Shown piece by piece: positions 14,875 to 34,415 of a stretch of 64,000 nucleotides of DNA (positions are counted from its first letter, which is position 1; each line of letters starts with the position of its first letter). The stretch comes from Desulfurococcaceae archaeon (GTDB taxonomy: Archaea > Thermoproteota > Thermoprotei_A > Sulfolobales > Ignisphaeraceae): NCBI GenBank assembly GCA_020832925.1, contig JAJHRF010000002.1, forward strand, positions 31,425 through 95,424. The letters are read 5' to 3'. The notes under the pieces are model-generated. The model was not told where the DNA came from. It ran no database searches and saw nothing but the letters and a program-made list of their open reading frames with translations. The position numbers and the translations under genes are program-made.

Positions 14875-14878
14875 TGTT

Positions 14879-15868: not shown

Positions 15869-16938
15869 GGGTTATCGAAGAGGATATCTGTTGCACTAAG
15901 ACAAAAGTTTTTATAGGTAGAAGAGCTCTAAATGAAGCTATTCGCGAGATACCTGAAGATAATAAGATTGCTTTAATTAGGCAAGACTCTATAGATCCTA
16001 GCTATATACATCAGAATGTTAAAAGAATTTCACTTGAGATAGTGTTGAAAGGTGGTGAAGAGAGTAAAAATATTGAGAACGTACTTAAGATTGTTAGTGA
16101 ACTATATAGCAAAGGGTTCGATAGATCAGACTACTTAATAGCTCTTGGAGGAGGTTCATTAACAGATACAGCTGGCTTAGCTGCTGCTCTATATCTTAGA
16201 GGATTAAATTTAGTCAATATACCGACAACGATACTAGGTATGGTTGACGCTTCTATAGGTGGAAAAGTTGCTGTAAATCTAAAGAATATGAAGAACGTTA
16301 TAGGGGTTTTTTACAACCCAACGATGGTTATTATGGATTTCAACTTCCTCAACACTTTACCGCAGGAAGAATTTATCAATGGATTAGCAGAAGTAGTTAA
16401 ACACGCTTTCACTCTCGATCTAGATCTCTACAACTATCTACGTAATAATGTCTCCTCTATTCTTAGTAGAGACGACGCCCTACTTGAAGAAGTTATCGCT
16501 ATGAATGTACGCGATAAACTTTCTATCGTTAAAATGGATCCCTATGAAACGAAAGGAATTAGGATTGTTTTAAACTATGGTCATACGATTGGTCATGCGA
16601 TAGAAACTTTATCTCAGTTCAGGGTAAGCCATGGGAAAGCTGTGGCTATTGGAATGGTTTACGAAGCTATGATCGGTGTTGAGCTTGGCTATACAAAACC
16701 TTATATCGTAGATAAGATTAAAGAGATTCTTCTCATGCTCGGGTTGCCGATAAGTCTTAAGGATGTTGGTTTAGGAGATAATGTTAGTATTGAACAGCTG
16801 AAGAATGTTGTTTCTAGGGATAAGAAGATTCGTAGGGGAAGGCTAGCGATACCTGTGGTTGTTGATATTGGTAGTTGGAGAGCTGTTGAAGTAACTGTTG
16901 AAGAGTTTGTAGAGGTGTTTTTGAAATGCGTGAAATAG
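15865..16938 (+). CDS. aroB: 3-dehydroquinate synthase
   Basis: 357 residues, the normal AroB length. NAD-binding ALGGGSLTD is at 93-101, IPTTILGMVDASIGGK at 119-134 (with the catalytic-site Lys), the metal ligand E176 lies in AEVVKH, and the later metal-binding histidines are in YGHTIGHAIE and RVSHGKAVAIGM. It converts DAHP to 3-dehydroquinate. The start overlaps the DAHP synthase stop (ATGA) and the end overlaps aroE by 13 bases, so the genes are translationally coupled. Confidence 0.96.
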   Translation: MRVIEEDICCTKTKVFIGRRALNEAIREIPEDNKIALIRQDSIDPSYIHQNVKRISLEIVLKGGEESKNIENVLKIVSELYSKGFDRSDYLIALGGGSLTDTAGLAAALYLRGLNLVNIPTTILGMVDASIGGKVAVNLKNMKNVIGVFYNPTMVIMDFNFLNTLPQEEFINGLAEVVKHAFTLDLDLYNYLRNNVSSILSRDDALLEEVIAMNVRDKLSIVKMDPYETKGIRIVLNYGHTIGHAIETLSQFRVSHGKAVAIGMVYEAMIGVELGYTKPYIVDKIKEILLMLGLPISLKDVGLGDNVSIEQLKNVVSRDKKIRRGRLAIPVVVDIGSWRAVEVTVEEFVEVFLKCVK

Positions 16939-17732
16939 ATAGCGGGACAGAGTTATATGGATTAATTGGAAGTGGAATCGCTTATACACTTTCTCCGGCT
17001 ATTCATAATTACGTGTTTGAAAAACTTAATCTTAACGCTATCTACTATCCTTTCGATATCCCAGTAGAGAAGTTTGAAAAAACTGTAGGTGCTTTGTTAG
17101 AGATTTGCAAGGGACTTAACGTAACAATTCCATATAAAGAAGTTATCATACCATATCTAAGTTCATTAGATGAAACTGCTGAAAAAGTTGGTGCTGTAAA
17201 TACTGTATATAGATTGAAGGGGTATAATACAGATTACATAGCTTTGAAAAAACTTGCATCAAGATATAGAGACATTATCGAGAACTCGACGTGTTATATC
17301 TTTGGTGCTGGAGGAGCTGCGAAAGCTGTTGCTATTGCTCTTGGGGAACTAGGTTGTAGAGAAATAGTTGTTGTTAATAGGACTCAGAGAAGAGCTATTA
17401 ATATGGTTCAGAAGCTTAGGAATATGGGTTTCAATGCAGAGGTTGGGGATAGGGATTATGAGAAGAGATGCGATGTTGTTGTAAATGCTACTCCTAATCC
17501 TGATTTCGTACCTGATACATGTGTTGAAAAATCGCGTCTTGCTATAGAACTTGTCTACAGACCCATCGAAACTTCGCTTATAAGAAGAGCTCTAAAAGCT
17601 GGTGCTAAAATTGTGAATGGTCTCGAGATCTTAGTTGCTCAAGCATTAGAAGCGCAGAAGATTTGGTTTGGGGTAGAGTACCCTATCGATGATGTTTTGA
17701 GGTATCTCTATGCCAGGAAACTCGTTTGGTAA
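16926..17732 (+). CDS. aroE: Shikimate dehydrogenase
   Basis: 268 residues. The shikimate-binding SPAIHN is at 23-28, NVTIPYKE has catalytic Lys71, NTDY has Asp103, and the Rossmann motif FGAGGAAKAVA is followed by VNRTQRRA. The NRT motif favours NADPH in known AroE proteins. It reduces 3-dehydroshikimate to shikimate. It overlaps aroB upstream and aroC downstream by 13 and 23 bases. Confidence 0.96.
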   Translation: MREIDSGTELYGLIGSGIAYTLSPAIHNYVFEKLNLNAIYYPFDIPVEKFEKTVGALLEICKGLNVTIPYKEVIIPYLSSLDETAEKVGAVNTVYRLKGYNTDYIALKKLASRYRDIIENSTCYIFGAGGAAKAVAIALGELGCREIVVVNRTQRRAINMVQKLRNMGFNAEVGDRDYEKRCDVVVNATPNPDFVPDTCVEKSRLAIELVYRPIETSLIRRALKAGAKIVNGLEILVAQALEAQKIWFGVEYPIDDVLRYLYARKLVW

Positions 17733-18879
17733 GATTTTCAAGGTAACAACTTTTGGAGAAAGCCACGGAGTTTTAATTGGTGTTGTTGTAGATGGTGTCC
17801 CAGCCGGATTACCGTTGACTGAAGATGATATAAACTTTGAGTTGAAGTTCCGTAGACCAGGAGCTTTATATACATCTCCGAGGATAGAGGAGGATAAGGC
17901 TAGGATTGTAAGTGGTGTACTTAACGGTAGGACTACAGGAGCTCCTATAGCTATAGTTGTTGAGAATAGAGATGTTGATACAAGTTACTACGAAGAGATA
18001 AAATATACGCCGAGGCCTAACCATGCTGATATGGCTTATATCTTTAGGTACGGTTTTGAGAACTGGGATTATAGAGGTGGGGGTAGGGCTAGTGGTAGAG
18101 AGACTGTAGCAAGAGTTGCTGCAGGTGCTATAGCTAAAAAACTCTTGATGTTAATAGGGACACAGGTTGCTTCTTGTGTAGAATCTATAGGGGAGGCGAC
18201 TATCGATGGAGATATAGATTTTGAGAATGCTCTTAAATCTCGTTTACTATCCACTAGAGCTTGTAGAAAAGAATATGATGAGAAGTTCAGAGTTCTACTT
18301 GAGTTAATTTCGAGTGAAGGTGATAGTGTAGGAGCTGTTATCAGAGGGATCGTTATCGATGTTCCGAGAGGTTTAGGAGAACCTGTGTTTGATAAAGTTA
18401 AAGCTGATTTAGCGAAAGCAATGTTCTCGATACCTGGTGTTGTAGGTTTTGAAATCGGGCTTGGGTTTAACGCGGCTTTGAAAAGAGGTAGCGAAGTTAT
18501 GGATGAGATAGTGGTTATGAATGGTGATATAAGGTGGAAAAAGAATATCTATGGAGGTATCCTTGGTGGGGTAACCACCGGGGAACCTATAGTATTTAGA
18601 GTAGCATTCAAACCAACAAGCTCTCTCAAAAAACCTATGAGAACTGTTGACCTAAGGACGATGAAAGAGGTAGAGATTGTTGTTAGAGGTAGACATGATC
18701 CCTGTATAGGTATTAGAGGAGCAGCTGTAGTAGAAGCTATGACTGCGCTAGTTCTTGTAGACCATGCGATGAGATCCGGGTTGATACCGACGACAAAACT
18801 TTCCCAGAAAGATATTGAGATAATTAGCGAGAGATGGGAGAGGTATAGAAGATGTCTGCTTGGGCAGGGATATCAGTAG
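17710..18879 (+). CDS. aroC: Chorismate synthase
   Basis: 389 residues. It begins [20 protein letters not shown], the first family signature, with the conserved His19. The RPNHADMAY and [12 protein letters not shown] signatures follow, and the C-terminal block ([24 protein letters not shown]) is intact. It eliminates phosphate from EPSP to give chorismate and needs reduced FMN; no flavin reductase is evident in the operon. The start lies 23 bases inside aroE; the end overlaps the shikimate kinase gene by 28 bases. Confidence 0.96.
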   Translation: [389 protein letters not shown]

Positions 18880-19652
18880 TCAACGCTCTTCCATCAGGAC
18901 TAGGAGCAGCTACTGCAATAAGTCTACGAGTAGATGCCACTCTATCTAATACCTGTACAGATAGTGAAAATCTATCGCAACTCGTGAAGACAATCCTAAA
19001 GTATTTCGAGAACCGCTATAGTTTACCTAAGTTTTGCGTAAAAATCCTATCTCAAGTACCGCCAGGTAGCGGTTTGAAGAGTAGTAGTGCTGTAGCTGTT
19101 GCATTGATCAAAGCTATTATCTACAAGTATTCTCTCTACGAACCTAATATACCTAGGTTAGCAGCTGAACTTTCAAAAATAGCTGGTGTATCTTTTACAG
19201 GTGCTTTAGATGATGCAGCTGCTGCTTACTACGGAGGTATTGTTTTTACCGATAATACCAATATGAAGATTATCAGGGTTGACGATGTAAGAGATGATTT
19301 AAATGTTGTTATCCTCATACCTAGAGATATCAAAAGACCGTATATAAGTTTAAACGAGATGAGAAGATACAGTAGCCTATTCAATACAATATTTGAGCGT
19401 GCATTTCAGGGAGATTTCTTCAAAGCTATGACGATGAACGGTATAGCTATAGCTAAGATCCTATACCCTAACCTCGAAGATATTATTGTTAAAGCTTTAA
19501 AACTTGGTGCACTAGCAGCTGGTGTATCAGGTAATGGTCCAAGCCTCTTTGCTGTGTGTAGAGAAGGTGATGAAGAGTTTTTTCAAGAGCTTTTCTCTAG
19601 CTACGGAGATGTGCTTAAGGCTAAGTTTGTAAGGTTTGGTGAAGAAATGTGA
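18852..19652 (+). CDS. aroK: Archaeal shikimate kinase, GHMP family
   Basis: 266 residues of the GHMP kinase superfamily, the archaeal non-homologous shikimate kinase. The phosphate-binding loop is QVPPGSGLKSSSAVAVAL (about 68-85), there is a mid-protein SFTGALDDAAAAYYGG block and the C-terminal SGNGPSLFAV motif. It phosphorylates shikimate at O3. Operon position between aroC and aroA supports shikimate over homoserine or mevalonate as substrate. It overlaps both neighbours. Confidence 0.94.
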   Translation: MSAWAGISVVNALPSGLGAATAISLRVDATLSNTCTDSENLSQLVKTILKYFENRYSLPKFCVKILSQVPPGSGLKSSSAVAVALIKAIIYKYSLYEPNIPRLAAELSKIAGVSFTGALDDAAAAYYGGIVFTDNTNMKIIRVDDVRDDLNVVILIPRDIKRPYISLNEMRRYSSLFNTIFERAFQGDFFKAMTMNGIAIAKILYPNLEDIIVKALKLGALAAGVSGNGPSLFAVCREGDEEFFQELFSSYGDVLKAKFVRFGEEM

Positions 19653-20890
19653 AAGCTGTGGTTGAGCCTTCGAAAGTTTTCGGAAAGATAAAAGCTCCTC
19701 AGTCAAAGAGCTATGCCATTAGATATATATTCTCAGCAATACTTACAGATATCGAGATTCTGAACCTTATTGAATCTAGCGATATAATTGACGCTATTAA
19801 TGCTGTATCGATATTCAGTATCAGAAGAGAGGGAACAAGGTTTCGTAGACCAGCAGAACTTTCATTGAGAAGCGATATGGTTTTCGTAAAAGGTTCTGCA
19901 ACTGTATTAAGGATGCTGATACCTATCGTAGCTGTTGTTGGAGGTAGGCTTCATATAGATGGTGGTGAAACGCTTAGGAGAAGACCTCTAAAAACTATTG
20001 TTAAAGCGCTATCGAGTAAGGGTATATCCTTCTCTAGTGATAGTCTACCGCTGATTATGGAAGGAAAGCTGAGGGATAACTACATAGAGCTAGACGGTAA
20101 TGAAAGTAGCCAATATATCACAGGTTTTATGTATGCATTTGCACTCAGTGGTGGGGGAACTATTGTTGTTAAACCTTCAATACCGTCGAAAATCTATATC
20201 TACTTAACAGCTCAAGTACTTAAGGAAATAGGGATCGATGTTCATGTCTATGAGAATAGAGTTGATGTAGAGGTATACGATAAACCGCGTAGCATTAGTG
20301 TAGAGGTTCCAGGAGACTTCTTACTCGCATCATTTTATGTTGCTGCATCTCTTATCACAGGTGGTGAGATAGAGATCTACGGATTACCGAAGCTAGGTAG
20401 AGATCCTAGGTATCACCCGATAGTCGATGTATATAGGGGTATGGGGGCTTATAGCGTGTTTAAAGATGGTGTATGGATAGCTTCTGCAGCTAGAGATTAT
20501 AGAGGTGTTGTAGTTGATGTTGAGCAAGATCCTGATATAGCTCCTTCGGTAGCCGCCCTAGCTAGCGTTGTGCAGGGGGAGACTATTCTCCTCAATGTCT
20601 CTAGACTTAGAATTAAGGAAAGCGATAGAATTGAGACTATAACAAACGTTTTACAGAGTTTCGGAGTAAAATGCTGGTTCGATGGCTCCAACATGCATAT
20701 CTATGGAGGTACTTTGAGGAGGTCTAGAATTGTATGCCCTGATGACCATAGAGTAGCTATGATGGGAGCCGCGATAGCGACAAAAGTTGGTGGGGAAATC
20801 GATAGAGCTGAATGTGTGGATAAAAGTAATCCAGGTTTTTGGTCAGATCTCATGAAGTTGAACATTAGAGTATCTCTGGTATCGTTATAG
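19649..20890 (+). CDS. aroA: EPSP synthase (3-phosphoshikimate 1-carboxyvinyltransferase)
   Basis: 413 residues with two inside-out alpha/beta domains. The N-terminal KAPQSKSYAIR (about 15-25) is the substrate-binding Lys-Ser loop. GSATVLRML corresponds to the family GTAMRFL region. RIKESDRIE and the C-terminal DDHRVAMMGA block are intact. It joins phosphoenolpyruvate to shikimate 3-phosphate. The start is GTG at 19649, overlapping the aroK stop (GTGA). The GSAT motif differs from the usual bacterial GNAGT. Confidence 0.94.
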   Translation: MKAVVEPSKVFGKIKAPQSKSYAIRYIFSAILTDIEILNLIESSDIIDAINAVSIFSIRREGTRFRRPAELSLRSDMVFVKGSATVLRMLIPIVAVVGGRLHIDGGETLRRRPLKTIVKALSSKGISFSSDSLPLIMEGKLRDNYIELDGNESSQYITGFMYAFALSGGGTIVVKPSIPSKIYIYLTAQVLKEIGIDVHVYENRVDVEVYDKPRSISVEVPGDFLLASFYVAASLITGGEIEIYGLPKLGRDPRYHPIVDVYRGMGAYSVFKDGVWIASAARDYRGVVVDVEQDPDIAPSVAALASVVQGETILLNVSRLRIKESDRIETITNVLQSFGVKCWFDGSNMHIYGGTLRRSRIVCPDDHRVAMMGAAIATKVGGEIDRAECVDKSNPGFWSDLMKLNIRVSLVSL

Positions 20891-20904
20891 TAGGGTTGTG
20901 TAAC

Positions 20905-21537
20905 ATGGTTAAGAGACCTTATATTGTTGCTTCAATACCTATTAAGAGTCTTGAGGATCTAGGTTTAGCGCTAGGTATAGAGGATGCTGATTTTGTTGAA
21001 CTTAGGCTTGATTACTATGAAAAACCTGAGGAGATTGAATACGAGGGGTTAAAGGGAAAGAAGTTTATAATGACTTTGAGAGAACCTGAGGAAGGTGGAT
21101 ATAGGAAGTTTAATCCATTTGTTAAGAAGAAGCTTATTAATATTTGGAGAGAATTCGGATTTATCTACGATGTTGAGATGAGATTTATTGAGAAATGGGG
21201 TATTGATTATGAAAACGCTATCGTATCTATCCATATCTTTGATGAAGTACCTCTAATAAGTAGTGTTATCAATACCATTGCTAAATATATAGATAAAGCT
21301 TTTGCTGTTAAAATCGCTGTTAAACCATTCAAAGGTTACAAAGTGTTTCTAGCTTCTTTACTAGAGTTAGGTGAAAATATAGCAGTTATGCCTATGGATG
21401 TCGATGAAGTTGAGAGAATTGCTTTTGCTTTACTAGGTTCAAAACTTGTCTACGGCTATGTAACACAGCCAACTGCTTCTGGGCAGCCTCATTATAAAAA
21501 ACTTATCGAAATCTTTAAAAAGATATTCACTAACTAG
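20905..21537 (+). CDS. aroD: 3-dehydroquinate dehydratase, type I
   Basis: About 210 residues. Counting from ATG 20905, the catalytic His is H110 in VSIHIF and the Schiff-base Lys is K136 in AFAVKIAV; VELRLDY and FIMTLREPEEGG are the usual early strands, and ATASGQP is present as PTASGQP near the end. It dehydrates 3-dehydroquinate. A TTG at 20896 would add three residues (MCN); I prefer ATG 20905. It lies between aroA and the prephenate dehydratase gene. It is shorter than the bacterial enzyme (about 250) but usual for archaea. Confidence 0.93.
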   Translation: MVKRPYIVASIPIKSLEDLGLALGIEDADFVELRLDYYEKPEEIEYEGLKGKKFIMTLREPEEGGYRKFNPFVKKKLINIWREFGFIYDVEMRFIEKWGIDYENAIVSIHIFDEVPLISSVINTIAKYIDKAFAVKIAVKPFKGYKVFLASLLELGENIAVMPMDVDEVERIAFALLGSKLVYGYVTQPTASGQPHYKKLIEIFKKIFTN

Positions 21538-21540
21538 AGT

Positions 21541-22608
21541 GTGATCTCTGTGAGCAAGGGTATGGATGAAGAGGTAAAGGTTCTAGATAGAGAGCTTGTA
21601 AAACTCTTAGTGAGAAGATTAGAGCTTTCGAAAAATATTGATGAAGCTAAACTTAGGTTACTCAATGTCGAAGCTTATAATAATCTAAAAGATACTCTTA
21701 TAGAGGCAGGGGTTTCAGAGTATTACGCATCTCTATTCGCAGGACTCTACATAGCTACTCTTAGTCGAGGTAATAGTGTAAAAATTGCATATCTTGGTCC
21801 TAGAGGATCTTTTTCAGAAGAAGCTACACTAAAGATATTCAAAAACATGAAAATCGTGTTGATACCTCAAAACAGTATTTCAGCTGTTTTCAGAGTTGTT
21901 GAGGAGGGAGATGCAGACTATGGTGTTGTCCCTTTAGAGAATTCTCTAGAGGGTAGCATAGGAGAGACTATAGATATGCTTGCAGAAACAAACCTGATGA
22001 TATGTGGAGATACAGAACTTAGGATAAAGCTAAATCTAATAGTTAAACCTGGTACAAAACTTGAAGATATAAAAGTTGTTGTTAGTAATCCCTATGCTTT
22101 AGGTCAAGCAAGAAGATTTATCGAAACATTCTTAAAGAATACTAAAGTAGAGATTGTTTCTAGTACAGCTGAAGCTGTTAAAATAGCTGTTTCAACAGAT
22201 GGTGTAGCAGCAATAGGCTCAGAATACGCTGCCATACTCTACAACGGTGAGATACTGCTACACAGTGTAGAAGATTATAGAGAGAACTATACTCGCTTCA
22301 TAGTAATTGGGAGAAAACCTCTCATAATTTCTAATAACACTAGCAATAGTTCGTATAGAACAGCTGCTATATTCATTGTTAAACATGAACCTGGAGCACT
22401 ATACAAAGCACTTCAACCATTTGCAGAAAGAAAAATAAATTTAACAAAAATAGAGTCTAGACCTATTAAAGGAAGACCTTGGGAATACAAATTCTTTATA
22501 GAATTCGAAGGAAACTTAGAAAATGTTAACATTTCTCAATCAATAGAAGAGCTTAAGAAAAGAACAGAATTCCTAAAAATACTTGGTTCATATCCACGGA
22601 TACCATAG
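21541..22608 (+). CDS. pheA: Prephenate dehydratase with N-terminal chorismate mutase-like domain and ACT domain
   Basis: 355 residues in three parts. An AroQ-like helical segment (about 8-80, LDRELVKLLVRRLELSKNI) comes first. The prephenate dehydratase domain (about 83-265) has YLGPRGSFSEEA, PLENSLEGSIGE and the catalytic NYTRF. The C-terminal ACT domain (about 275-350) has GALYKAL and the phenylalanine-binding ESRP motif (IESRPIKG). It makes phenylpyruvate from prephenate or chorismate and should be inhibited by phenylalanine through the ACT domain. The start is GTG 21541, 3 bases after the aroD stop; the internal GTG 21550 and ATG 21562 are possible. It is the last gene of the aromatic operon. 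Confidence 0.93.
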   Translation: MISVSKGMDEEVKVLDRELVKLLVRRLELSKNIDEAKLRLLNVEAYNNLKDTLIEAGVSEYYASLFAGLYIATLSRGNSVKIAYLGPRGSFSEEATLKIFKNMKIVLIPQNSISAVFRVVEEGDADYGVVPLENSLEGSIGETIDMLAETNLMICGDTELRIKLNLIVKPGTKLEDIKVVVSNPYALGQARRFIETFLKNTKVEIVSSTAEAVKIAVSTDGVAAIGSEYAAILYNGEILLHSVEDYRENYTRFIVIGRKPLIISNNTSNSSYRTAAIFIVKHEPGALYKALQPFAERKINLTKIESRPIKGRPWEYKFFIEFEGNLENVNISQSIEELKKRTEFLKILGSYPRIP

Positions 22609-25015: not shown

Positions 25016-26116
25016 GTGATCGTTTTGGGTAGAAACTTTAGAGGGATCATAACTGTTAGAGGAGGTATTGGCGAAGAGCTTCTGTATGAAGAATCTATGT
25101 GTATATACGTTATAGCATCTACAAAGACTTCAACAATCCCAGGTATATCGTTAGCTGGTCAAGCTCCTCTACTCACCTTATTCACACCTGCTCTAGATGT
25201 TGAATATCTTTACCATGGCAAACCTGTGTCTTTTTCTATCATACCTACAACTCCTGAAGGGATCCCTACCCCTGCTATCATAACGCGTACAGCTCTCAAA
25301 CTATCTAATACACCTTTCATTGTTGTTGATGCAGGTTCCTTTGTAGAGCCTAAGATACCTACTCTAAAGCTTTCCTCTAGATCTGTTGGGGGTAGGATAG
25401 ATATTGAAGATGCTCTTCCCCCGGGAACATCTAGGAGATTATTCGAGGAAGCTAAAGATATTGGTAGAACTCTAGGTTCTTTCGTTGATGTAGTTGTTGT
25501 TGGGGAGAGTATGCCTGGAGGAACAACAACAGCTTTAGCTATAGTCAAAGCTTTAGGTTTCGGGGATTATAATGTTGTTAGCAGTTCTTCAAAACATAAC
25601 CCTGTAGATCTTAAGAAGAATGTTGTTGAGAAAGCTCTTAACAGATTAGGTTTTGAGAAAGATCCTTTCAAGGTGAACGATGTTCTCGGAGATCCTCTAC
25701 ACATAACTATCGCTGGTATAGCTCTAGGAGTAATTGAGAAAGGGTCTACTGTTGTTCTAGCTGGTGGTACTCAGATGCTTGCAACTCTATCCCTTATAAA
25801 GAGTATAGATCCTCGTTTTAGTGGAGAAAGAGTTGTTCTAGCTACTACTAGATGGATATACATAGATAAAGGTAGAGAGATACTCAGTATCCTAGACAAG
25901 CACTTCCCTAACATAACTTTTACATATGTAGATCTAAACTTCTCTGATGCTCCTTATAAAGGTCTTAGAGCTTATGAAGAAGGTTTTGTTAAAGAAGGTG
26001 TAGGAGCTGGTGGAACAGCTTTCTTAGCTCTGCTTAGAGGAGTTGATGTAGAGGATCTGAAGAAAGGTATATACGAAGAGTATAGAGGTATCGTAGGTTC
26101 TGGCGATACTCTATGA
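25016..26116 (+). CDS. cobT: Archaeal CobT (nicotinate-nucleotide:base phosphoribosyltransferase type)
   Basis: 366 residues of the archaeal CobT family. GESMPGGTTTALA, SSSKHNPVDLKK and VVLAGGTQMLATLSLI match the phosphoribosyltransferase core, and GAGGTAFLALLRG lies near the end. It would activate the lower-ligand base of the cobamide as its ribotide. The start is GTG 25016. It begins a tightly packed operon and overlaps the next gene by 4 bases (ATGA). The family is less well characterised than bacterial CobT, so the accepted base is open. Confidence 0.88.
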   Translation: MIVLGRNFRGIITVRGGIGEELLYEESMCIYVIASTKTSTIPGISLAGQAPLLTLFTPALDVEYLYHGKPVSFSIIPTTPEGIPTPAIITRTALKLSNTPFIVVDAGSFVEPKIPTLKLSSRSVGGRIDIEDALPPGTSRRLFEEAKDIGRTLGSFVDVVVVGESMPGGTTTALAIVKALGFGDYNVVSSSSKHNPVDLKKNVVEKALNRLGFEKDPFKVNDVLGDPLHITIAGIALGVIEKGSTVVLAGGTQMLATLSLIKSIDPRFSGERVVLATTRWIYIDKGREILSILDKHFPNITFTYVDLNFSDAPYKGLRAYEEGFVKEGVGAGGTAFLALLRGVDVEDLKKGIYEEYRGIVGSGDTL

Positions 26117-27228
26117 CTAGGGTTGTTGAAAGCAGTAGCGATGTTTTGGTATTAGATCTCGAGAAAGATATGGTTGTTCTATCTACAGCTGGATGCCCAA
26201 AGATCTTCAACTACATAAGGTATGTAGTATTTAAACGTGTTCCAAAAAATTTCGGTTATACGGATCTCGATAAGTATTGTCAAGAGTTATCAGAAACACT
26301 CAACCTAGATTACCAGAGAACCACGATATTCTTAACAGCTGTAGATATCTCGACATATAGTTCCGCTAAAACCTTTTACAGAGATGTGGAAGCAGAGGTA
26401 TTTATAACACTCGGTATAAATACCCCCTCATGTGTAAGCATAGAACAGGATAACAGTTTCGAAAAAACTGTAGGGACTATAAACATAGCTATTGTGGTGA
26501 ATAAACCTCTTAGTAGATTAGCTCTTCTAGATCTCTTTAGACTTGTTTCAGAAGTTAAAGGAGCGTTAATAGCTTTAGGAGGTCCTCAATGTATCAACGG
26601 TGTATCGATAGGAACAGCATCTGATGCAACAGCTGTTATCGCTCCAGAGGGTTTTGAGAGATTCGCAGGTATTGCTACAGATGTTGGTATAGCTGTGTCT
26701 AAAGCTCTTGTGAAAGCGTTGACAAATCTCTTGACCAAGGGTAATGTCGGTGATTATGTAGCTCAGACATTGGGGTTGAAGAGTTTCGATGATGTTGTTA
26801 GAGTAGCTGAGAAGATCTATAGCTACGCACCTATACCTAGGCTAGAGAAGAACGTTGTTGTTAAAGAAGTTGAGGAAGAACTTCTTAAAGCATTGAGAGA
26901 CCCCAATATCCAGATCCTTGTAAGAGGTATGAAGCTTGCTGAAGTATGTGCACAACTAGGTCTTATACCCTCTATAACATTCAAAGAGTTTTCATCTGAT
27001 ACCCCTAGGATAATAGTTGATGAACTTGTAGGGAAAGCTCTATCAGAGTATATCAATGGTTTCAAAGGTTTGCTAGCTTATTACTGGGTAGAGAGGCTTA
27101 AGGAGAGAGGGGGTATTCCTGAAGTAGGGATGCTCCCGCCAATCGCAGACGATCTTCTAGGAGCTCTTGTAGGAGCTACTCTTAGCAGGGTATACGATAG
27201 GTATGCGCAGAACAGGGGTGGGGAATGA
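26113..27228 (+). CDS. CbiZ-CobZ fusion: adenosylcobinamide amidohydrolase plus alpha-ribazole phosphatase-like domain
   Basis: 371 residues in two domains. Residues about 1-225 are CbiZ-like (STAGCP, TAVDIS, NIAIVVNKPL, GTASDATAVIAPEG, GIATDVGIAVSKAL). CbiZ cuts the aminopropanol arm from adenosylcobinamide to give adenosylcobyric acid, the archaeal salvage route. Residues about 235-371 resemble phosphatidylglycerophosphatase A/CobZ (FSSDTPRIIVDELVG, EVGMLPPIADDLLGALVG); CobZ of methanogens removes phosphate from alpha-ribazole 5'-phosphate. The fusion joins the start of the nucleotide-loop pathway to a late step. It overlaps cobT and cobY. Confidence 0.82.
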   Translation: MTRVVESSSDVLVLDLEKDMVVLSTAGCPKIFNYIRYVVFKRVPKNFGYTDLDKYCQELSETLNLDYQRTTIFLTAVDISTYSSAKTFYRDVEAEVFITLGINTPSCVSIEQDNSFEKTVGTINIAIVVNKPLSRLALLDLFRLVSEVKGALIALGGPQCINGVSIGTASDATAVIAPEGFERFAGIATDVGIAVSKALVKALTNLLTKGNVGDYVAQTLGLKSFDDVVRVAEKIYSYAPIPRLEKNVVVKEVEEELLKALRDPNIQILVRGMKLAEVCAQLGLIPSITFKEFSSDTPRIIVDELVGKALSEYINGFKGLLAYYWVERLKERGGIPEVGMLPPIADDLLGALVGATLSRVYDRYAQNRGGE

Positions 27229-27770
27229 AGGTATTGATAATGGCTGGTGGAAAAGGGTCTAGGCTTGGAGGGGTTAAGAAACCATTTCTACGTATATGCG
27301 GTAGAAGGTTGATAGATGTTGTAGTAGAAGTTGCGAAAGATATAGCTAAAGATGATAAGGTCTACGTATGTCTACCCGGAGAAGATACCCCATACCTAAG
27401 CGGTTTAGAAGATGTAAACTCGATTGAGTGCCCAGGTAAAAACTATGTAGAAGATCTTGTATATGCTCTCGAAAGAGTAGGAACACCTGTACTCGTTCTT
27501 CCAGCTGATATGCCTTTCCTTACAGCTGATATAGTTAAAGAGTTTCTACAGAAAGCACAAGACCTTGAAGGCGATGTAGTTACGCTCATGGTCTGTGGTA
27601 AAGATGGTTGCAGAGAGTCCGGTATATCATTGTTCAGAGGTTTAGGAGGTTCGTGGAGCAATGTCTACTTCGATGAAGTTCCTCAGCTAAGAGATGTAGA
27701 TACATATGAAGATTTGAAGTGGGTTGAAGAGGTTTGCGGATCCACGGCGGTGATAGGAAGGCTAAACTAG
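27225..27770 (+). CDS. cobY: CobY, adenosylcobinamide-phosphate guanylyltransferase
   Basis: 181 residues: the archaeal nucleotidyltransferase that replaces bacterial CobU. The N-terminal nucleotide-binding MAGGKGSRLGGVKKP (6-20) is followed by VLVLPADMPFLTADIV, with the metal-binding Asp in PADMPF. It makes adenosylcobinamide-GDP. It overlaps the CbiZ-CobZ gene by 4 bases and the cobD gene by 37 bases in another frame. Confidence 0.9.
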   Translation: MKVLIMAGGKGSRLGGVKKPFLRICGRRLIDVVVEVAKDIAKDDKVYVCLPGEDTPYLSGLEDVNSIECPGKNYVEDLVYALERVGTPVLVLPADMPFLTADIVKEFLQKAQDLEGDVVTLMVCGKDGCRESGISLFRGLGGSWSNVYFDEVPQLRDVDTYEDLKWVEEVCGSTAVIGRLN

Positions 27771-28777
27771 ACTTTAGCTCTAATATTAATCCTTTAGCAC
27801 CTCCGGAATCTGTATACAGAGTTTTGCGTATATGTTTAGAGAGTAAAGTTCTCGAGATGTATCCTGACTATAGATATGAAGAACTACGTAAAGCTATTTC
27901 AAAGTTTTACAAATGCGATGAAGAGAACGTTATCCCTACAAACGGTGCTCATGAAGCGATAAATTTAGCGATAATAGCTTTAAATCCTAAGAGAATAGTT
28001 GTTGTAGAGCCTTCCTACGGTGAATATGAAGATCTATCGAGAACCTTAGGTATAGAATATACACCTCTACTCTACAGACGTAGAGATAACGAGTTTTATC
28101 TAGAGTTAGAAGATTTTGAGGAATTCTGTAACGATAGAGATACTCTTATAGTCGTTACTAACCCTAGCAACCCACTCGGTATCTATATAGATAAACAAGT
28201 TCTATTAAATAAGTTATCTAGGTGTAGAGCTAGAGTACTTATAGATGAAGCTTATACCGAGCTCTGCTCCACTTGCCCTATAGAGATCGGATTCTCTACG
28301 CCTGAGAACGTGGTTATCGTTAGGTCTATGACTAAATGGCTTGGATTACCAGGTCTTAGACTAGGCTTCCTCTACACATCATCGAGAGAACTCCTCAATA
28401 GAATTGATATTCTTAGACAGCCATGGAATGTCAATAGCTTAGCTGAGTGTTTAGCTATAGAGTTTTTTAATAGATTTGAGAACGATGTTAAGAAGTTCAT
28501 AGAGATTTCGAGAAAGTTTATAGATGAGGAAAGAGGTAGGGTTTCGCAAGAGTTAAGAAATCTAGGGTTCAAGGTATTCAGAAGTGTTACAAATTTCATT
28601 CTCGTAGAGATTCCAAACGGTTTAAACGTTGTAGATATGCTTAGAAGAGAAGGAGTTGCTGTTAGAAGTTGCTCAAGTTTTAAAGGATTGGGACCTGATT
28701 TTATAAGGATAGCTATAAGGAAGAGAGAGGAGAACGATATCTTGATCAAGTTGTTGAGGGAGGTGTACAGAGTATGA
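27734..28777 (+). CDS. cobD: L-threonine-O-3-phosphate decarboxylase (CobD type)
   Basis: 347 residues of PLP fold type I. It begins MRIHGGD, then LDFSSNINPLAPP, the signature that separates CobD from histidinol-phosphate aminotransferases. VTNPSNPLG, the PLP-ring Asp in LIDEAYTEL and the Schiff-base Lys201 in SMTKWLGLPGLRLGF are present. It makes (R)-1-amino-2-propanol phosphate, or ethanolamine phosphate from phosphoserine, for the nucleotide loop. The start is TTG 27734, inside cobY. The kinase that supplies its substrate may be the SerK-like gene 1.8 kb downstream. Confidence 0.88.
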   Translation: MRIHGGDRKAKLDFSSNINPLAPPESVYRVLRICLESKVLEMYPDYRYEELRKAISKFYKCDEENVIPTNGAHEAINLAIIALNPKRIVVVEPSYGEYEDLSRTLGIEYTPLLYRRRDNEFYLELEDFEEFCNDRDTLIVVTNPSNPLGIYIDKQVLLNKLSRCRARVLIDEAYTELCSTCPIEIGFSTPENVVIVRSMTKWLGLPGLRLGFLYTSSRELLNRIDILRQPWNVNSLAECLAIEFFNRFENDVKKFIEISRKFIDEERGRVSQELRNLGFKVFRSVTNFILVEIPNGLNVVDMLRREGVAVRSCSSFKGLGPDFIRIAIRKREENDILIKLLREVYRV

Positions 28778-29568
28778 GAAGTATTCTCAAATCTCTTTCT
28801 ACACTCCTATGTTTTTTCACATCCATACCTCTACCTAGGAAACTCTGTAGCTCAACTGAGTTTAGATCTCTATACCTAGTACCGCTTGTAGGATTCGTCA
28901 AAGGGTTTGTAGTAGCAGTTCCTATAGCTATTCTAAAGAATTACCTATCTCTAGATGTAGCTATTGTATCCTCTATAGCTATTCTCCTCCACTTCTCTAT
29001 ACAAGGATTTCTACATGTTGATGGATTCATAGATTTCTCCGAAGCTTTGATTGCATCTAGGTTTGGTGTAGATCCTTACAAAGTTGTTAAGGATAAGTAT
29101 AGAGGTTCTTACGCTATAGCCACATTCTCTACGTATATATTAATCCTCTACACCTCTATCTACACCTTAACAAAGATACTGAATCCTATACCTCTACTAC
29201 AGCTCCTAGTTTTAAGCGAGGTATGGAGTTCAATAGTATTCCTAGTACTACCCTATATAGCTCCAGCTCCACCAAATGGTTTAGGTAAGAAGTTTAAGGA
29301 TAGCGTTAAATTTGTAGACATCGTAATGGGGATCGCGATAGCTATTATCTTGACATGTATCTTAACCTTGTGTACAGGGAATCCTATGAAAGGTTTCTAC
29401 ATAGTGTTCTACTCTTTACCAGCTGTAACTATATCCACATTTATAACCTATACCTTGAGTATGAGAACACTAAGGTTTGTTAATGGTGATGTTCTTGGAT
29501 TTGCTTTCGAGATCTCCTACCTACTAACAATACTTGCATATGTAGCTACGGTGTCTACATGGATATAA
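28774..29568 (+). CDS. cobS: CobS, adenosylcobinamide-GDP ribazoletransferase
   Basis: 264 residues with five or six membrane helices. The family's acidic motif appears as HVDGFIDFSEAL (about 87-98; usually HLDGLADTADG), followed by DPYKVVKDKYRGSYA. It joins alpha-ribazole (phosphate) to adenosylcobinamide-GDP at the membrane. It overlaps cobD by 4 bases and the cbiB gene by 10. The unusual second half of the acidic motif (FSEAL) is typical of some archaeal homologues. Confidence 0.88.
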   Translation: MRSILKSLSTLLCFFTSIPLPRKLCSSTEFRSLYLVPLVGFVKGFVVAVPIAILKNYLSLDVAIVSSIAILLHFSIQGFLHVDGFIDFSEALIASRFGVDPYKVVKDKYRGSYAIATFSTYILILYTSIYTLTKILNPIPLLQLLVLSEVWSSIVFLVLPYIAPAPPNGLGKKFKDSVKFVDIVMGIAIAIILTCILTLCTGNPMKGFYIVFYSLPAVTISTFITYTLSMRTLRFVNGDVLGFAFEISYLLTILAYVATVSTWI

Positions 29569-30539
29569 CATTCATTTACCCTAAGAACATAGCCGAATAC
29601 ATATGTATACTCTTCACAGCTATAGTACTCGACATTGTCTATCCATACCATAGAGGAATCCTATACCGTGTACACCCTACGCATACAGCTTATGTATACG
29701 CTCTATCTCTATATAGAAAATTGCCTAAGACAAAGATTTCTGGAATAGTGATATGGTTGATAGTTGTTTTCAGTCACATCATCTTATACGGAGGTATGCT
29801 GTACATAGCTAACAAGATCTCTAGGATTCTATGGCTAGTTATATCCATCTATGTAACCAAGGTCTCTATATCGATTAAGCTCTTGATAAACTACGTAGTG
29901 GATACAGGGAGATGTTTAGAGAAAGGAGATATAGGGTGTGCTAGAGAAACTGTTTCTCATATAGTTAGAAGAGATGTGCATAGCCTTGGGGAAGGTCATA
30001 TAGCTTCAGCAGCTCTAGAATCGCTTTTCGAAAACATTGTCGATAGCTTTACATCGCCTATACTTTTCTACCTATTGCTAGGACCTCTAGGAGCTCTTAT
30101 CCAGAGATTGGTAAATACTTTAGATTCAGCTCTAGGCTATACTGATCCAGGTTTCAGAGAAGTTGGGTGGATGTCTGCTAAAGCTGATACCTATGTAAAT
30201 TTCGTACCTGCTAGAATAACAGCTTTGATAACAATAGCTTTATGTCCGCTTATCGGAGGATCTTGGGCAAATTCTCTAAAAATCTGTCTAAGAGATAAAA
30301 GGAATACCCAGAGCTTAAACGCGGGATACCCAATGTCTTCGGCATCTGGATGTCTATCTATTAAGTTAGAGAAGATAGGGTTCTACACGATAGGGTATGA
30401 ATACCCCTTGCCAAGCTATACAGATATCTACAGAGGTATTAAGCTAGGACTCTACGTAGCTACAACATTCACAGTTTTATCAATTCTACTCTATCCACTT
30501 GTAAACCACATCTTCTCCCAGGTGGTTAACTACGGTTAA
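29559..30539 (+). CDS. cbiB: CbiB, adenosylcobinamide-phosphate synthase
   Basis: 326 residues, an integral membrane protein. The family core is clear: DIVYPYHRGILYRVHPTH, ARETVSHIVRRDVHSLGEGHIASAALESLFENIVDSFTSP and VNTLDSALGYTDPGFREVGWMSAKADTYVNFVPAR. It amidates adenosylcobyric acid with aminopropanol (phosphate), reversing the CbiZ cut with a new arm. It overlaps cobS by 10 bases. Together with CbiZ this is the archaeal remodelling pathway. Confidence 0.93.
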   Translation: MDITFIYPKNIAEYICILFTAIVLDIVYPYHRGILYRVHPTHTAYVYALSLYRKLPKTKISGIVIWLIVVFSHIILYGGMLYIANKISRILWLVISIYVTKVSISIKLLINYVVDTGRCLEKGDIGCARETVSHIVRRDVHSLGEGHIASAALESLFENIVDSFTSPILFYLLLGPLGALIQRLVNTLDSALGYTDPGFREVGWMSAKADTYVNFVPARITALITIALCPLIGGSWANSLKICLRDKRNTQSLNAGYPMSSASGCLSIKLEKIGFYTIGYEYPLPSYTDIYRGIKLGLYVATTFTVLSILLYPLVNHIFSQVVNYG

Positions 30540-30585: not shown

Positions 30586-31239
30586 GTGGTATTCCTAAAT
30601 ATCGAGGATTTAGTTCCTCACGAAGCTGTAAATCTTGATCACCTCAGATATGTTCTCAAAGAGATCAAATCTAGAGGTATTGTAAAACCTATTATCGTTG
30701 ATAAAGTAAAGAACTTAGTTATAGATGGTCATCACAGAGTCGAGGTTTTGAAGCTTATGGGTTTAAAGGTTGTGCCAGCTGTAATCGCTTCTTATGATAG
30801 AGATATACATAGGGTAGATTCCTGGGCTTATGTCGCTAATTTCGGTGAAGAGGTACATAGATTAGCTAGAGAATTTCTTGGAGAGATTATGTATAGTGTT
30901 AAGAAGGGTGATAAAGAGGTTTGTATGAAGATAGGGTTTGAAAATACATGTATATCTGTTGATGCTATCGATTTCTATCTCTTATTAAACGAGGTGAGTA
31001 GATGGAGAGAGTTCAGTATCTTCAGTAAGATGTTTAAGAAGACTCCGTTCAACCATGCTATCTATAGAGAATATGATGTTTGTATAGCTCTGCCCAAGCT
31101 ATCTGTTGAAGATATCTATAGAGTTGCTATGGAGAATCTTACGCTACCTCCTAGAACTACATACCATAGAACATACTTAAAGAAGGTAGATATGTATATA
31201 CCTCTAAAATTCTTGGCGAAGATATCGAAGAGGTTGTGA
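30586..31239 (+). CDS. SerK-like (ParB-fold) free amino acid kinase, candidate threonine/serine kinase for cobamide synthesis
   Basis: 217 residues. The N-terminal ParB/SerK nucleotide-binding fold has IEDLVPHE (residues 6-13) and VIDGHHRVE (45-53), and near the C-terminus PPRTTYH precedes YIPLKFL. The same three landmarks mark the ADP-dependent serine kinase SerK of Thermococcus kodakarensis as I recall it: PHE, VDGHHR and PKTTRH. That enzyme phosphorylates free L-serine. The position just after cbiB, 1.8 kb from cobD, suggests that it makes threonine- or serine-O-phosphate for CobD (inference). The start is GTG 30586; in-frame codons back to the cbiB stop also look coding but lack a start codon. 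Confidence 0.75.
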   Translation: MVFLNIEDLVPHEAVNLDHLRYVLKEIKSRGIVKPIIVDKVKNLVIDGHHRVEVLKLMGLKVVPAVIASYDRDIHRVDSWAYVANFGEEVHRLAREFLGEIMYSVKKGDKEVCMKIGFENTCISVDAIDFYLLLNEVSRWREFSIFSKMFKKTPFNHAIYREYDVCIALPKLSVEDIYRVAMENLTLPPRTTYHRTYLKKVDMYIPLKFLAKISKRL

Positions 31240-31242
31240 TAT

Positions 31243-31866
31243 ATGCGTATAGCGTTTCTATCCGGTGGTAAAGATTGTTACTACGCTTTATATAGACTAG
31301 GTCTAGGTGTTGATCTAGGTCTTGTACTGGTTTACGAATTCCCTCGCCCAAGTCCGCATACTCTTAACCTTGGTAAAACAGTTGAAACTATCCTCTTAGC
31401 TAAGATACCTGTTGTAGTAGCTAAACTTAGCAAAGGTAGAGAATTCGAGGAAACAGCTAAGATCTTGAAGATGTTGTCTGCGGATACTATAGTTGCAGGA
31501 GATGTATATATAGAAGATCATCTAAACTATATGGAGAGACTAGCTAAAGAAGTTGGCGCATCGTTGATAGAGCCTTTATGGGGGTTAGATTCTGTAGAGG
31601 TTCTGTATAAAGAGGTTGAGGTTGGTATAAAACCTCTTATCATTGGGTGTAGAGAAGGTTTATCTAGATGGTTAGGTAAGTACATAGATAGGGATAACGT
31701 TGATGATTTCATTTACGAAACCCGTAAACACTGTTACGATCCTCTAGGTGAACATGGTGAATATCACACAATTGTTGTTGATGGACCTCTTCATGTATCG
31801 CCACTAAAGTTTAGATCTGTAGATGTAGAGGATTACGGCGATTACAAGATCTTGAGGTTATTGTGA
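31243..31866 (+). CDS. DUF71/Dph6-like PP-loop ATPase, B12-cluster type
   Basis: 207 residues of the DUF71/COG2102 family. The PP-loop FLSGGKDCYYAL is at 5-16, with LIEPLWG mid-protein and the C-terminal GEHGEYHTIVVDGPLH. Dph6 in this family amidates diphthine on elongation factor 2. A subset of archaeal members clusters with B12 salvage genes and has been proposed to act there. This copy sits between the SerK-like gene and an Asn-synthase-like gene in the corrinoid operon, so it belongs to that subset by context. It overlaps the next gene by 4 bases. Confidence 0.78.
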   Translation: MRIAFLSGGKDCYYALYRLGLGVDLGLVLVYEFPRPSPHTLNLGKTVETILLAKIPVVVAKLSKGREFEETAKILKMLSADTIVAGDVYIEDHLNYMERLAKEVGASLIEPLWGLDSVEVLYKEVEVGIKPLIIGCREGLSRWLGKYIDRDNVDDFIYETRKHCYDPLGEHGEYHTIVVDGPLHVSPLKFRSVDVEDYGDYKILRLL

Positions 31867-32639
31867 TGGTTAAGAAGATGCCTTGTCATATATATGAAGA
31901 GATAGTTCTTAAAAAACTTGTAGAGATTGTTAGTAGAAGTAGATGTGATTGCATAGCTCTTAGCGGTGGTATAGATACTTCTACAGTTCTTCTAGCAACA
32001 AAGTTAGCTGGTTTAAATCTTAGAGGATACGTTGTTGTTTATAGAGGTGGTATTCCGAGAGATCTTCCTTACACTATCTACATCTCTAAACATCTCGGTG
32101 TTGATGTTGAGTACATATTCATAGATTACAACGATGTGGAGAACCTTATTAAAAATGTTATCGAATGTATCGGTAGAGAGAATATAGATACCCATGGAGA
32201 TGGTGGGTGTATAGAGATTAGAAACGATATTGTTTTCTACACTGTTCTAAAGAGAGCTAGAGATGATGGATGTAGATGTGTATTCGTTGGTAGTGGAGGT
32301 GATGAGGTTTTCGCTGGATATAGCTTTATGCTTAGCTTAAGAGAAGATGAGCTTATCAAAACCATAGAGAAGATGTCTAGAGGTAGATTTCCGGAGCTAC
32401 AGATAGCGAAATGCTTAGGTATAGAGGTTTCAGCACCTCTGATAAATCCTGAGCTAGTGGATATAGCTATGGAGATACCCATAGATTGTATAAGGTCTCA
32501 ATTAATGAAAGGAAAGGAAGTTCTAAGATCTATACTCAATTCCTACGGACTTCATATTGTTGGAGATAGAGTGAAGGTGCCTGCGGAAGAGGGTGCTGGG
32601 ACTAGGGAGATATGCAGATCTATTCTCGATAACTACTAG
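31863..32639 (+). CDS. Asparagine synthase-like PP-loop protein without glutaminase domain
   Basis: 258 residues matching only the synthetase half of AsnB: CIALSGGIDTSTVLLATKLA (PP-loop), VGSGGDEVFAGYSFM (the AsnB GEGSDELFGGY block) and EVSAPLINPELVDIAMEIP. No N-terminal Cys-glutamine amidotransferase domain exists, so ammonia or another amine would be the nitrogen donor. Such stand-alone archaeal forms often have unknown substrates. It is coupled (4-base overlap) to the DUF71 protein and ends the operon. A carboxylate amidation within corrinoid or base salvage is possible (inference). Confidence 0.7.
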   Translation: MMVKKMPCHIYEEIVLKKLVEIVSRSRCDCIALSGGIDTSTVLLATKLAGLNLRGYVVVYRGGIPRDLPYTIYISKHLGVDVEYIFIDYNDVENLIKNVIECIGRENIDTHGDGGCIEIRNDIVFYTVLKRARDDGCRCVFVGSGGDEVFAGYSFMLSLREDELIKTIEKMSRGRFPELQIAKCLGIEVSAPLINPELVDIAMEIPIDCIRSQLMKGKEVLRSILNSYGLHIVGDRVKVPAEEGAGTREICRSILDNY

Positions 32640-32733: not shown

Positions 32734-33483
32734 ATGAAGATCAGAGATCTTGTGTTGTCTATAGTTAACGCATCTCTATACGCATTAATTGGTATAGCTA
32801 CGACCTTCGGGTTGTTCGCTATTATTGTTGGTGGTGTAAGGTTTTGGCCTTCAGTCTTCATACCAGCTGTATTTGCCGAGGTTTTCGGGCCTGTTGTAGG
32901 TGGGTTAGGAGCTGCTATAGGTATATTTGTAAGCGATATGGTTGTACATGGAAATGCTCTTGTAAGTTTATCTATAGGTGTTCCAGCTAATTTCATAGGG
33001 TTCTACGTCCTCGGCTACATAGCTAAGAAGACTAGGAGAGATTCCAAGATCTTAGGTATAGCAGCTATAGTTCTACAGTTTGTACCAGCTATAGCTCTTC
33101 TCTACCTCTACCAGATAGGTTTCCTAGATTTCATAACAACTATTGTTTTCCTAAGCGTAGCTACGCTATCTGCTATAGGTATTGCTATATCTATAGCTAT
33201 TCTAATGTTTAGAAGAGGTAGCTATGTATATCCAAACGAAGCTTTCGCCTACACCGTAGGCTTAATGCTAGGCTCTCTATACATAGGCTTAGGTCTATGG
33301 GCTTACACATACATAGCTAGACTTAGTATAGCTGCTGTTCCTCCGGAGTTCCAGATTAGAGCTCCGTTTACAGCCGCTTTAACATGGTTTCTCTGGACAT
33401 ACTATACAGAGATACCGTTTATGGTATACCTTTCCCCACCTATCGTGAGAGCTATCGAGATCTGGATGAAGAGGTACAGGTGA
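32734..33483 (+). CDS. ECF transporter substrate-specific (S) component-like membrane protein
   Basis: 249 residues with about six to seven membrane helices. The first half (helices with PAVFAEVFGPVVGGLGAAIGIFVSDMV) has the small-residue packing and acidic end of S components in energy-coupling factor transporters. A GHMP kinase gene, an A-component and a T-component follow, which supports the assignment. The substrate is not readable; the operon lies inside the corrinoid-salvage region, so a corrinoid, its precursor or the lower-ligand base is the likeliest cargo (inference). It is longer than a typical S component (about 180-200), owing to an extra C-terminal loop and helix. Confidence 0.7.
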   Translation: MKIRDLVLSIVNASLYALIGIATTFGLFAIIVGGVRFWPSVFIPAVFAEVFGPVVGGLGAAIGIFVSDMVVHGNALVSLSIGVPANFIGFYVLGYIAKKTRRDSKILGIAAIVLQFVPAIALLYLYQIGFLDFITTIVFLSVATLSAIGIAISIAILMFRRGSYVYPNEAFAYTVGLMLGSLYIGLGLWAYTYIARLSIAAVPPEFQIRAPFTAALTWFLWTYYTEIPFMVYLSPPIVRAIEIWMKRYR

Positions 33484-33488
33484 TAACG

Positions 33489-34415
33489 ATGATAAGGAGG
33501 GTGAGAGCAGTAGTTTCTGCAGGTCTTTCAGGGTTCTTCGCTCCTCACATAACTCAGAACTTAGCTGAGACAGGTGCTATCGGGGGAGGTCTAGGTATAC
33601 CTGATGCTGTAGAAGCTGAGGTAGTTGTAGAGCTAGGGAATAGCGATGGGGTTGCCATCGTTAATAAGGTTAACGGTGGGTACCTAGATGGATGTATAGC
33701 TAGATACATAGCCAGGAAAATACTTGGTATAGCCTCGATAAAAAACTGCAGAATATACATAGATCAGAGTATATCTGTCCCCATAGGCGGTGGATACGGT
33801 ACTAGTGGAGGATCGGCTGTAGCTATAGCATTTGCTTTAGCTAAAGCTCTAGATCTAGATATGGATTTCAACGATATAGCTGAGGTAGCTCATGAAGCTG
33901 ATATAGTATGTAAATGCGGTTTAGGAACTGTTGTAGGTATTATAAAACCTTGTAACGGAGTAGTATTGGTAGCGAAACCTGGTGGACCTAAGGTTGCAGA
34001 AGTTAGGTGTATACCTATAGAGTCTGGGGTAGTTGCTTTAACAGCTTTCTATAAACCTATACCGAAGAACACTATCCTAACGAATCCTTCAGATCTAGAG
34101 AAGGTGAAGATGATTGGTTTAGAGACTCTTAAAAGGATCGAGGATAACCCTACGCCGGAGAACTTCATAGAGAACTGCTATAGATTCGCTATAGAGACCA
34201 ACCTTATAACTCCTAGGGTTAAGTATGTTATAGATATGATGAAGAAGGTTAAGGGATGCATAGGAGGGTCTATGAATATGATCGGAGAAGCTGTTTTCGC
34301 ATTCATAGAGGAAGAAAGTGTCGATGAAGTTGTTGATGTAGTTAAGAAAACGAATCCTTTATGGATATACGTTTGGCGTCCTAGCGTTAGCTATGTAAAG
34401 GTTGAAGAGATTTGA
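33489..34415 (+). CDS. GHMP kinase, pantoate kinase-like family
   Basis: About 308 residues from ATG 33489. An earlier ATG at 33384 lies inside the S-component gene and adds unconserved sequence, so I reject it. The N-terminal SAGLSGFFAPHI resembles archaeal pantoate kinase (PAHITGFF). The GHMP phosphate loop is PIGGGYGTSGGSAVAIAFALAKA, and GCIGGSMNMIGEAVFAF is the C-terminal motif. Archaeal pantoate kinase makes 4-phosphopantoate for coenzyme A. The alternative is a PduX-like threonine kinase, which is also a GHMP protein, for cobamide synthesis. Its place between ECF genes in the corrinoid region keeps both options open. Confidence 0.65.
   Translation: MIRRVRAVVSAGLSGFFAPHITQNLAETGAIGGGLGIPDAVEAEVVVELGNSDGVAIVNKVNGGYLDGCIARYIARKILGIASIKNCRIYIDQSISVPIGGGYGTSGGSAVAIAFALAKALDLDMDFNDIAEVAHEADIVCKCGLGTVVGIIKPCNGVVLVAKPGGPKVAEVRCIPIESGVVALTAFYKPIPKNTILTNPSDLEKVKMIGLETLKRIEDNPTPENFIENCYRFAIETNLITPRVKYVIDMMKKVKGCIGGSMNMIGEAVFAFIEEESVDEVVDVVKKTNPLWIYVWRPSVSYVKVEEI

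Follow-up and report, generated by a model that had tools for sequence, protein, structure and literature searches.

A SerK-fold protein of an archaeal cobamide operon as a probable supplier of phosphorylated hydroxyamino acid to CobD

Introduction

For archaea such as Haloferax, the kinase that acts before CobD in cobamide synthesis (EC 2.7.1.177) is still listed among the gaps of the pathway (PMC8305020). The cobamide (cob) operon of a Desulfurococcaceae archaeon raises the question of which protein provides CobD with its phosphorylated substrate. A sequence-only reading of this locus regarded one gene product as a SerK-like kinase, and proposed it as the missing threonine or serine kinase of archaeal cobamide synthesis. 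Here we analyzed the gene, its predicted structure and its genomic contexts. The window is the whole stretch of DNA examined, 64,000 nt of contig JAJHRF010000002.1, and unprefixed coordinates are positions in it; the genome of origin (G000) is 99% complete.

Results

The gene under study is an open reading frame of 217 codons with a GTG start, and lies in the order cobT-cbiS-cobY-cobD-cobS-cbiB-serK-DUF71-AsnS-like (Table 1). The stop codon of cbiB lies 47 bp upstream and the DUF71 gene begins 3 bp downstream, so that the kinase gene reads as part of one operon. The enzymes encoded here are those of cobamide salvage and nucleotide-loop assembly, and the kinase before CobD is the step left without an assigned gene. 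The sequence-only reading had placed the gene between cbiB and other corrinoid genes near cobD. This placement holds on the upstream side, where cbiB is the neighbor and cobD is found two genes beyond, but the downstream neighbor is a DUF71 gene and not a canonical corrinoid gene. Compared with published motifs (PMC3541065), the GEHGEYH of this DUF71 protein is of the DUF71-B12 type, a group connected with B12 salvage; it is a partner of the kinase, not a homologue. The AsnS-like protein lacks a glutaminase domain and is a constant companion of DUF71 in cob operons. CobD, the presumed consumer of the kinase product, matches S. enterica CobD (1lc5) end to end, scores 248.7 bits against TIGR01140 (cut-off 290.55), and shows no C-terminal extension or extra domain. 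Upstream of the cob operon, a near-complete shikimate and aromatic amino acid cluster forms one run (13933-22608). Rfam and repeat searches returned nothing notable.

Table 1. Features of the cob operon, with positions in the window.
Feature	Coordinates	Strand	Evidence or residues
Archaeal cobT	25016..26116	+	TIGR00303 6e-96, over cut-off
cbiS (CbiZ-CobZ fusion)	26113..27228	+	NF038002 1e-60, TIGR03161 2e-25
cobY-like guanylyltransferase	27225..27770	+	NF045495 4e-18
cobD, threonine-phosphate decarboxylase-like PLP enzyme, 347 aa	27734..28777	+	TIGR01140 8e-74; 1lc5 E 6e-35
cobS	28774..29568	+	Pfam CobS 8e-31
cbiB, adenosylcobinamide-phosphate synthase	29559..30539	+	NF002281 7e-97; TIGR00380 over cut-off
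Predicted kinase of the SerK fold, proposed to act on L-Thr (or L-Ser) and to supply CobD	30586..31239	+	E13, D47-H50-R51, T192/H194
DUF71 ATP pyrophosphatase, C-terminal GEHGEYH	31243..31866	+	NF052347 7e-79, over cut-off
Asparagine-synthase-like PP-loop protein	31863..32639	+	Pfam Asn_synthase 4e-19

The three SerK landmarks noticed in the initial reading are all present in the 217-aa product: PHE at residues 11-13 (within VPHE), VIDGHHR at 45-51 and PPRTTYH at 188-194. The best NCBIfam match is NF053625, the ADP-dependent L-serine kinase SerK (E 1.9e-12); at 46.9 bits and over residues 2-116 only, it does not reach the equivalog cut-off of 380 bits. The Pfam ParB_N match, at 26.4 bits, is barely above its cut-off of 26.3, no other part of ParB was matched, and Pfam found no GHMP kinase fold in the protein. 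A sequence search of the PDB retrieved SerK of Thermococcus kodakarensis (TK0378, TkSerK; chain 5x0b, E 2e-8), in an alignment ending at residue 100. Moreover, a profile built from six orthologues matched the entire length of SbnI (211 positions, E 8e-15) and the N-terminal half of TkSerK; in TkSerK, a weak second match fell on the PKTTRH motif. The similarity to SerK is well beyond chance.

An AlphaFold model made from a 19-sequence alignment (mean pLDDT 96.4) displays the two-domain architecture of SerK, a ParB-like N domain and the SerK C-terminal domain. When this model was compared with the PDB using Foldseek, the top ranks were all the TkSerK entries, the P. furiosus homologue and three SbnI entries, with E values from 4.9e-13 (TkSerK 5x0g, the best) to 4e-9 and TM scores of 0.6-0.7 across the entire chain; the best SbnI entry, 5uje, gave E 1e-10. 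Matches to ParB and sulfiredoxin cover about 75 residues, in ParB only the N-terminal domain, and neither Pfam nor Foldseek detected the HTH and dimerisation domain of ParB partition proteins in the 217-aa protein. Since TkSerK and SbnI match over the full length and ParB over those 75 residues, the protein as modeled belongs to the SerK/SbnI fold and is not a ParB. The same full-length match rules out a chance ParB-like similarity.

The catalytic glutamate, the DGHHR loop and the C-terminal K/RTT-H motif are all kept. E13 aligns with E30 of TkSerK, which is mutated to Gln or Ala (E30Q/E30A; PHE to PHQ or PHA) in 5x0j and 5x0e, two TkSerK structures with phosphoserine bound. In the cob-linked clade described below, E13, D47, G48, H49, H50, R51, P189, T192 and H194 are invariant, and E13, D47, H49, H50, R51, P189, T192 and H194 are nearly invariant family-wide too. 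Members of this clade also carry R190 instead of lysine, M81 and T196-LK, changes absent from most serine-linked clades and, judging from the alignment, candidates for an altered specificity.

For ALTERNATIVES in the source genome, a single SerK/ParB homologue was found, the product of 30586-31239, and no second one. A PduX homologue in the same organism had been named in the initial reading as evidence that would count against the proposal. We looked for one, and the six GHMP proteins of G000 are each assigned otherwise by best family match (galactokinase, homoserine kinase, mevalonate kinase, beta-RFAP synthase, shikimate kinase and pantoate kinase), which leaves no PduX candidate among them. 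The GHMP kinase encoded close to the operon (33384-34415) was rejected as PduX, as it matches pantoate kinase. Elsewhere in this genome (C50, L147:1186-2376), a SerK-associated PALP enzyme is flanked by a LarE-like gene and one for a Cys/Met-type PLP enzyme. This PALP has no short SerK partner in the genome, the partner being lost or never present. Given this PALP and the lack of a second SerK, cysteine synthesis may also draw on the kinase product.

Homologues at E 1e-6 occur in 169 of the 398 Thermoproteota genomes, and CbiB in 208. In a tree of 78 members, the window gene clusters with those of eight other genomes in a cob-linked clade (G143, G161, G179, G314, G052, Zestosphaera, DRTY-1 and Fervidicoccus ARK-14). 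Inspection of the neighborhoods of SerK homologues for cobD and cbiB, as had been suggested, revealed that cob genes or the cob-associated DUF71-AsnS pair are linked to the kinase gene in 9/9 clade genomes, all of which encode CbiB. The gene is directly downstream of cbiB in five of them (the source genome, G314, G179, DRTY-1 and Zestosphaera), follows a cbiB piece in Fervidicoccus G052 and ARK-14 (where a contig end cuts the locus), lies 2.9 kb from cbiB in G161, and belongs to a convergent module beside cbiB in G143. In Zestosphaera and G161 it is set apart from the DUF71 and AsnS-like genes. Comparison of linked with unlinked members by a Fisher test gave 3e-10, a value that is not a true probability because the members are related; likewise, the nine linked genomes do not represent nine independent events. 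The Fervidicoccus cbiB had been considered a pseudogene owing to reported internal stops, an idea dropped because the ORF of a related isolate is intact (335 aa). The ARK-14 isolate apparently has two cob clusters (L163, L164), only one of which leads into SerK; the other lacks it.

A gene of Ca. Methanodesulfokora, an organism that also encodes CbiB, joins the cob-linked clade at 99/93 support (the bootstrap being rough). This orthologue adjoins methanol-corrinoid methyltransferase genes (MtaB, corrinoid protein, RACo and URO-D methyltransferase), and its cob cluster is located about 44 kb from it in the same contig. In addition, three of the nine clade genomes have a second SerK-like gene outside this locus: that of G143 is TkSerK-like, whereas G161 and G314 have a short SerK gene that neighbors one for a cysteine-synthase-like PALP and is frameshifted in G314. 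In view of these second copies, the cob-linked copy seems to have a separate job of its own. A SerK gene from a different, short subfamily follows cbiB at a distance of 4 bp in G298, in the same orientation and at the contig end, which looks like an independent recruitment.

The gene is present in the cob operon in only one clade of the order, and SerK is absent from inside most cob operons of that order, where another gene or an unlinked SerK must act. Therefore, the claim of an archaeal solution has to be narrowed to one lineage. The joint presence of SerK and CbiB in the order (44/47 CbiB genomes with a SerK-like gene at E 1e-6, and 46/47 with the family profile, one broken copy included) is uninformative because other SerK-like subfamilies are found nearly everywhere.

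Outside the cob-linked clade, many members of the family also adjoin PLP enzymes. True SerK neighbors PGDH and a class-V aminotransferase. A short SerK of about 150 aa lies beside a cysteine-synthase-like PALP at 18 loci (L090:5272-7179 and 17 more), and this PALP bears an N-terminal extension of about 165 aa that resembles a degenerate SerK/ParB domain. The three relatives nearest the cob clade adjoin TrpB2 (L042:9649-11789, L064:9800-10489 and L087:9890-10594; TIGR01415 with 719 bits in L042). As TrpB2 uses O-phospho-L-serine (PMC11917138), the combination looks like a kinase-synthase pair for tryptophan. In Photorhabdus and Photobacterium, a 131-aa SerK-like protein is encoded upstream of a 618-aa nucleotidyltransferase-CobD-like fusion, a pairing independent of the archaeal one. 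These clusters (L096:9995-14222 and L097:9953-14090) also contain genes for an MFS transporter, a Lys/Orn monooxygenase-like protein and a formyltransferase, and probably represent a novel small-molecule pathway. Altogether, these contexts suggest that SerK kinases commonly feed a neighboring PLP enzyme. The Sulfolobaceae subfamily (about 200 aa; L069, L072, L123-L130) does not fit this rule, as it adjoins a GT2 glycosyltransferase and an endonuclease III-like gene.

Discussion

In this study, we asked which protein supplies CobD with its phosphorylated substrate in an archaeal cob operon. Our results indicate that this is probably the SerK-fold protein encoded directly downstream of cbiB, a reading supported by its fold, its intact motifs, the linkage in nine genomes, the second SerK copies elsewhere and the lack of a PduX-type alternative. 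The protein would act as a stand-alone kinase at the metabolite level. Its ParB-like N-terminal domain, through the IDGHHR loop, would bind the nucleotide, which may be ADP or ATP; an ATP-dependent relative exists in Staphylothermus. Glu13 would be the base, activating the hydroxyl in the side chain of the free hydroxyamino acid, and the C-terminal PPRTTYH motif would close the active site for transfer of the phosphate to this hydroxyl. The predicted product is L-threonine-O-3-phosphate or, with lower probability, O-phospho-L-serine. CobD of the same operon would decarboxylate it to aminopropanol-phosphate or ethanolamine-phosphate, which CbiB would then join to adenosylcobyric acid during nucleotide-loop assembly and salvage.

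The usual substrate of CobD, threonine phosphate, favors threonine, and so does the aminopropanol that, to our knowledge, known archaeal cobamides carry. If the protein supplies CobD, threonine phosphate is about twice as likely a product as phosphoserine. A serine kinase in the same role, a variant of this explanation that differs in substrate, is less probable, although it deserves serious attention. Its O-phosphoserine would be converted by CobD to ethanolamine-phosphate and yield norcobamides or mixed cobamides. Serine is the substrate of all characterized members, TkSerK as well as SbnI, an O-phospho-L-serine synthase; the nearest relatives in the tree adjoin the phosphoserine-using TrpB2, and the solved CobD homologue 6oux is labeled "threonine phosphate decarboxylase-like". 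The aminopropanol of archaeal cobamides argues against this variant, as may the R190, M81 and T196-LK changes of the cob clade. TkSerK, the one close relative with a characterized activity, phosphorylates serine with ADP and uses neither threonine nor ATP (PMC5120207). Hence, within the proposal of a SerK-like threonine or serine kinase, the SerK-fold supplier of CobD is supported by fold, motifs, linkage and the lack of a PduX candidate, and threonine specificity is a prediction.

The remaining explanations detach the protein from CobD. A serine kinase that serves cysteine biosynthesis, or serine use in general, and lies in the cob operon by chance is unlikely: pairing with cysteine-synthase-like PALP or PGDH is widespread in the family, and the source genome contains the PALP that usually accompanies a short SerK, but the cob linkage survives rearrangements in all nine genomes and three of these have another SerK-like gene. 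We give still less credence to another substrate of the corrinoid pathway, such as aminopropanol, or to a step shared with the DUF71 and AsnS-like partners. The close coupling with these two genes in seven genomes speaks for such a step, and in Fervidicoccus G052 the trio is accompanied only by the cbiB piece; however, both partners are common in cob operons without SerK, and SerK is split from them in Zestosphaera and G161. Least probable is that the protein binds a nucleotide (CTP or ATP) to regulate the cob operon or act as its scaffold and has no kinase function, since it combines a two-domain SerK fold and the catalytic glutamate with the absence of an HTH/dimerisation domain.

The supplier of CobD that we favor would perform the reaction of PduX and BluE, the L-threonine kinases of B12 synthesis, upstream of CobD/CobC, with a different fold: PduX is a GHMP-fold enzyme and BluE is described as a unique kinase, whereas the 217-aa protein has the ParB/SerK fold. 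In the MM2060-type CobD of another archaeon, which is bifunctional, the same step is handled by a kinase part within an extended CobD; here, a CobD of ordinary extent is accompanied by a separate kinase gene. The sequence-only reading counted a SerK-family enzyme as a third solution next to PduX and MM2060-type CobD. As BluE of Rhodobacter is also a proven L-threonine kinase (PMC6249242, PMC7242693), a SerK-family enzyme would be the fourth. Our literature search, which covered few subscription papers, found no link between SerK and cobamides.

With TkSerK, an ADP-dependent free serine kinase, the protein shares the two-domain fold (TM about 0.71), the PHE/DGHHR/KTTxH-type motifs and the position of the catalytic glutamate. 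It differs from TkSerK in its identity of about 21%, far under the NCBIfam equivalog cut-off, in the arginine for lysine of the C-terminal motif, and in its location in a cob operon instead of serine metabolism. SbnI of Staphylococcus, related by full-length profile and fold matches, is likewise a kinase that feeds a PLP enzyme in a biosynthetic cluster; it lacks the PPRTT-H motif, belongs to a siderophore pathway and is described as bifunctional, with transcriptional regulation.

A broader proposal, that a SerK-fold L-threonine kinase is dedicated to cobamides and that each SerK subfamily feeds its adjacent PLP enzyme (CobD, TrpB2, the cysteine-synthase-like enzyme or the CobD-nucleotidyltransferase fusion of Photorhabdus and Photobacterium), is one that we put forward tentatively, as a possibility close to even. 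If true, the kinase step before CobD would gain an unrelated enzyme of the SerK fold, free-amino-acid kinases would extend from serine to threonine, and many archaeal genes now named "ParB" would gain an annotation. The predicted kinase would account for a reaction to which no gene is assigned in many archaea.
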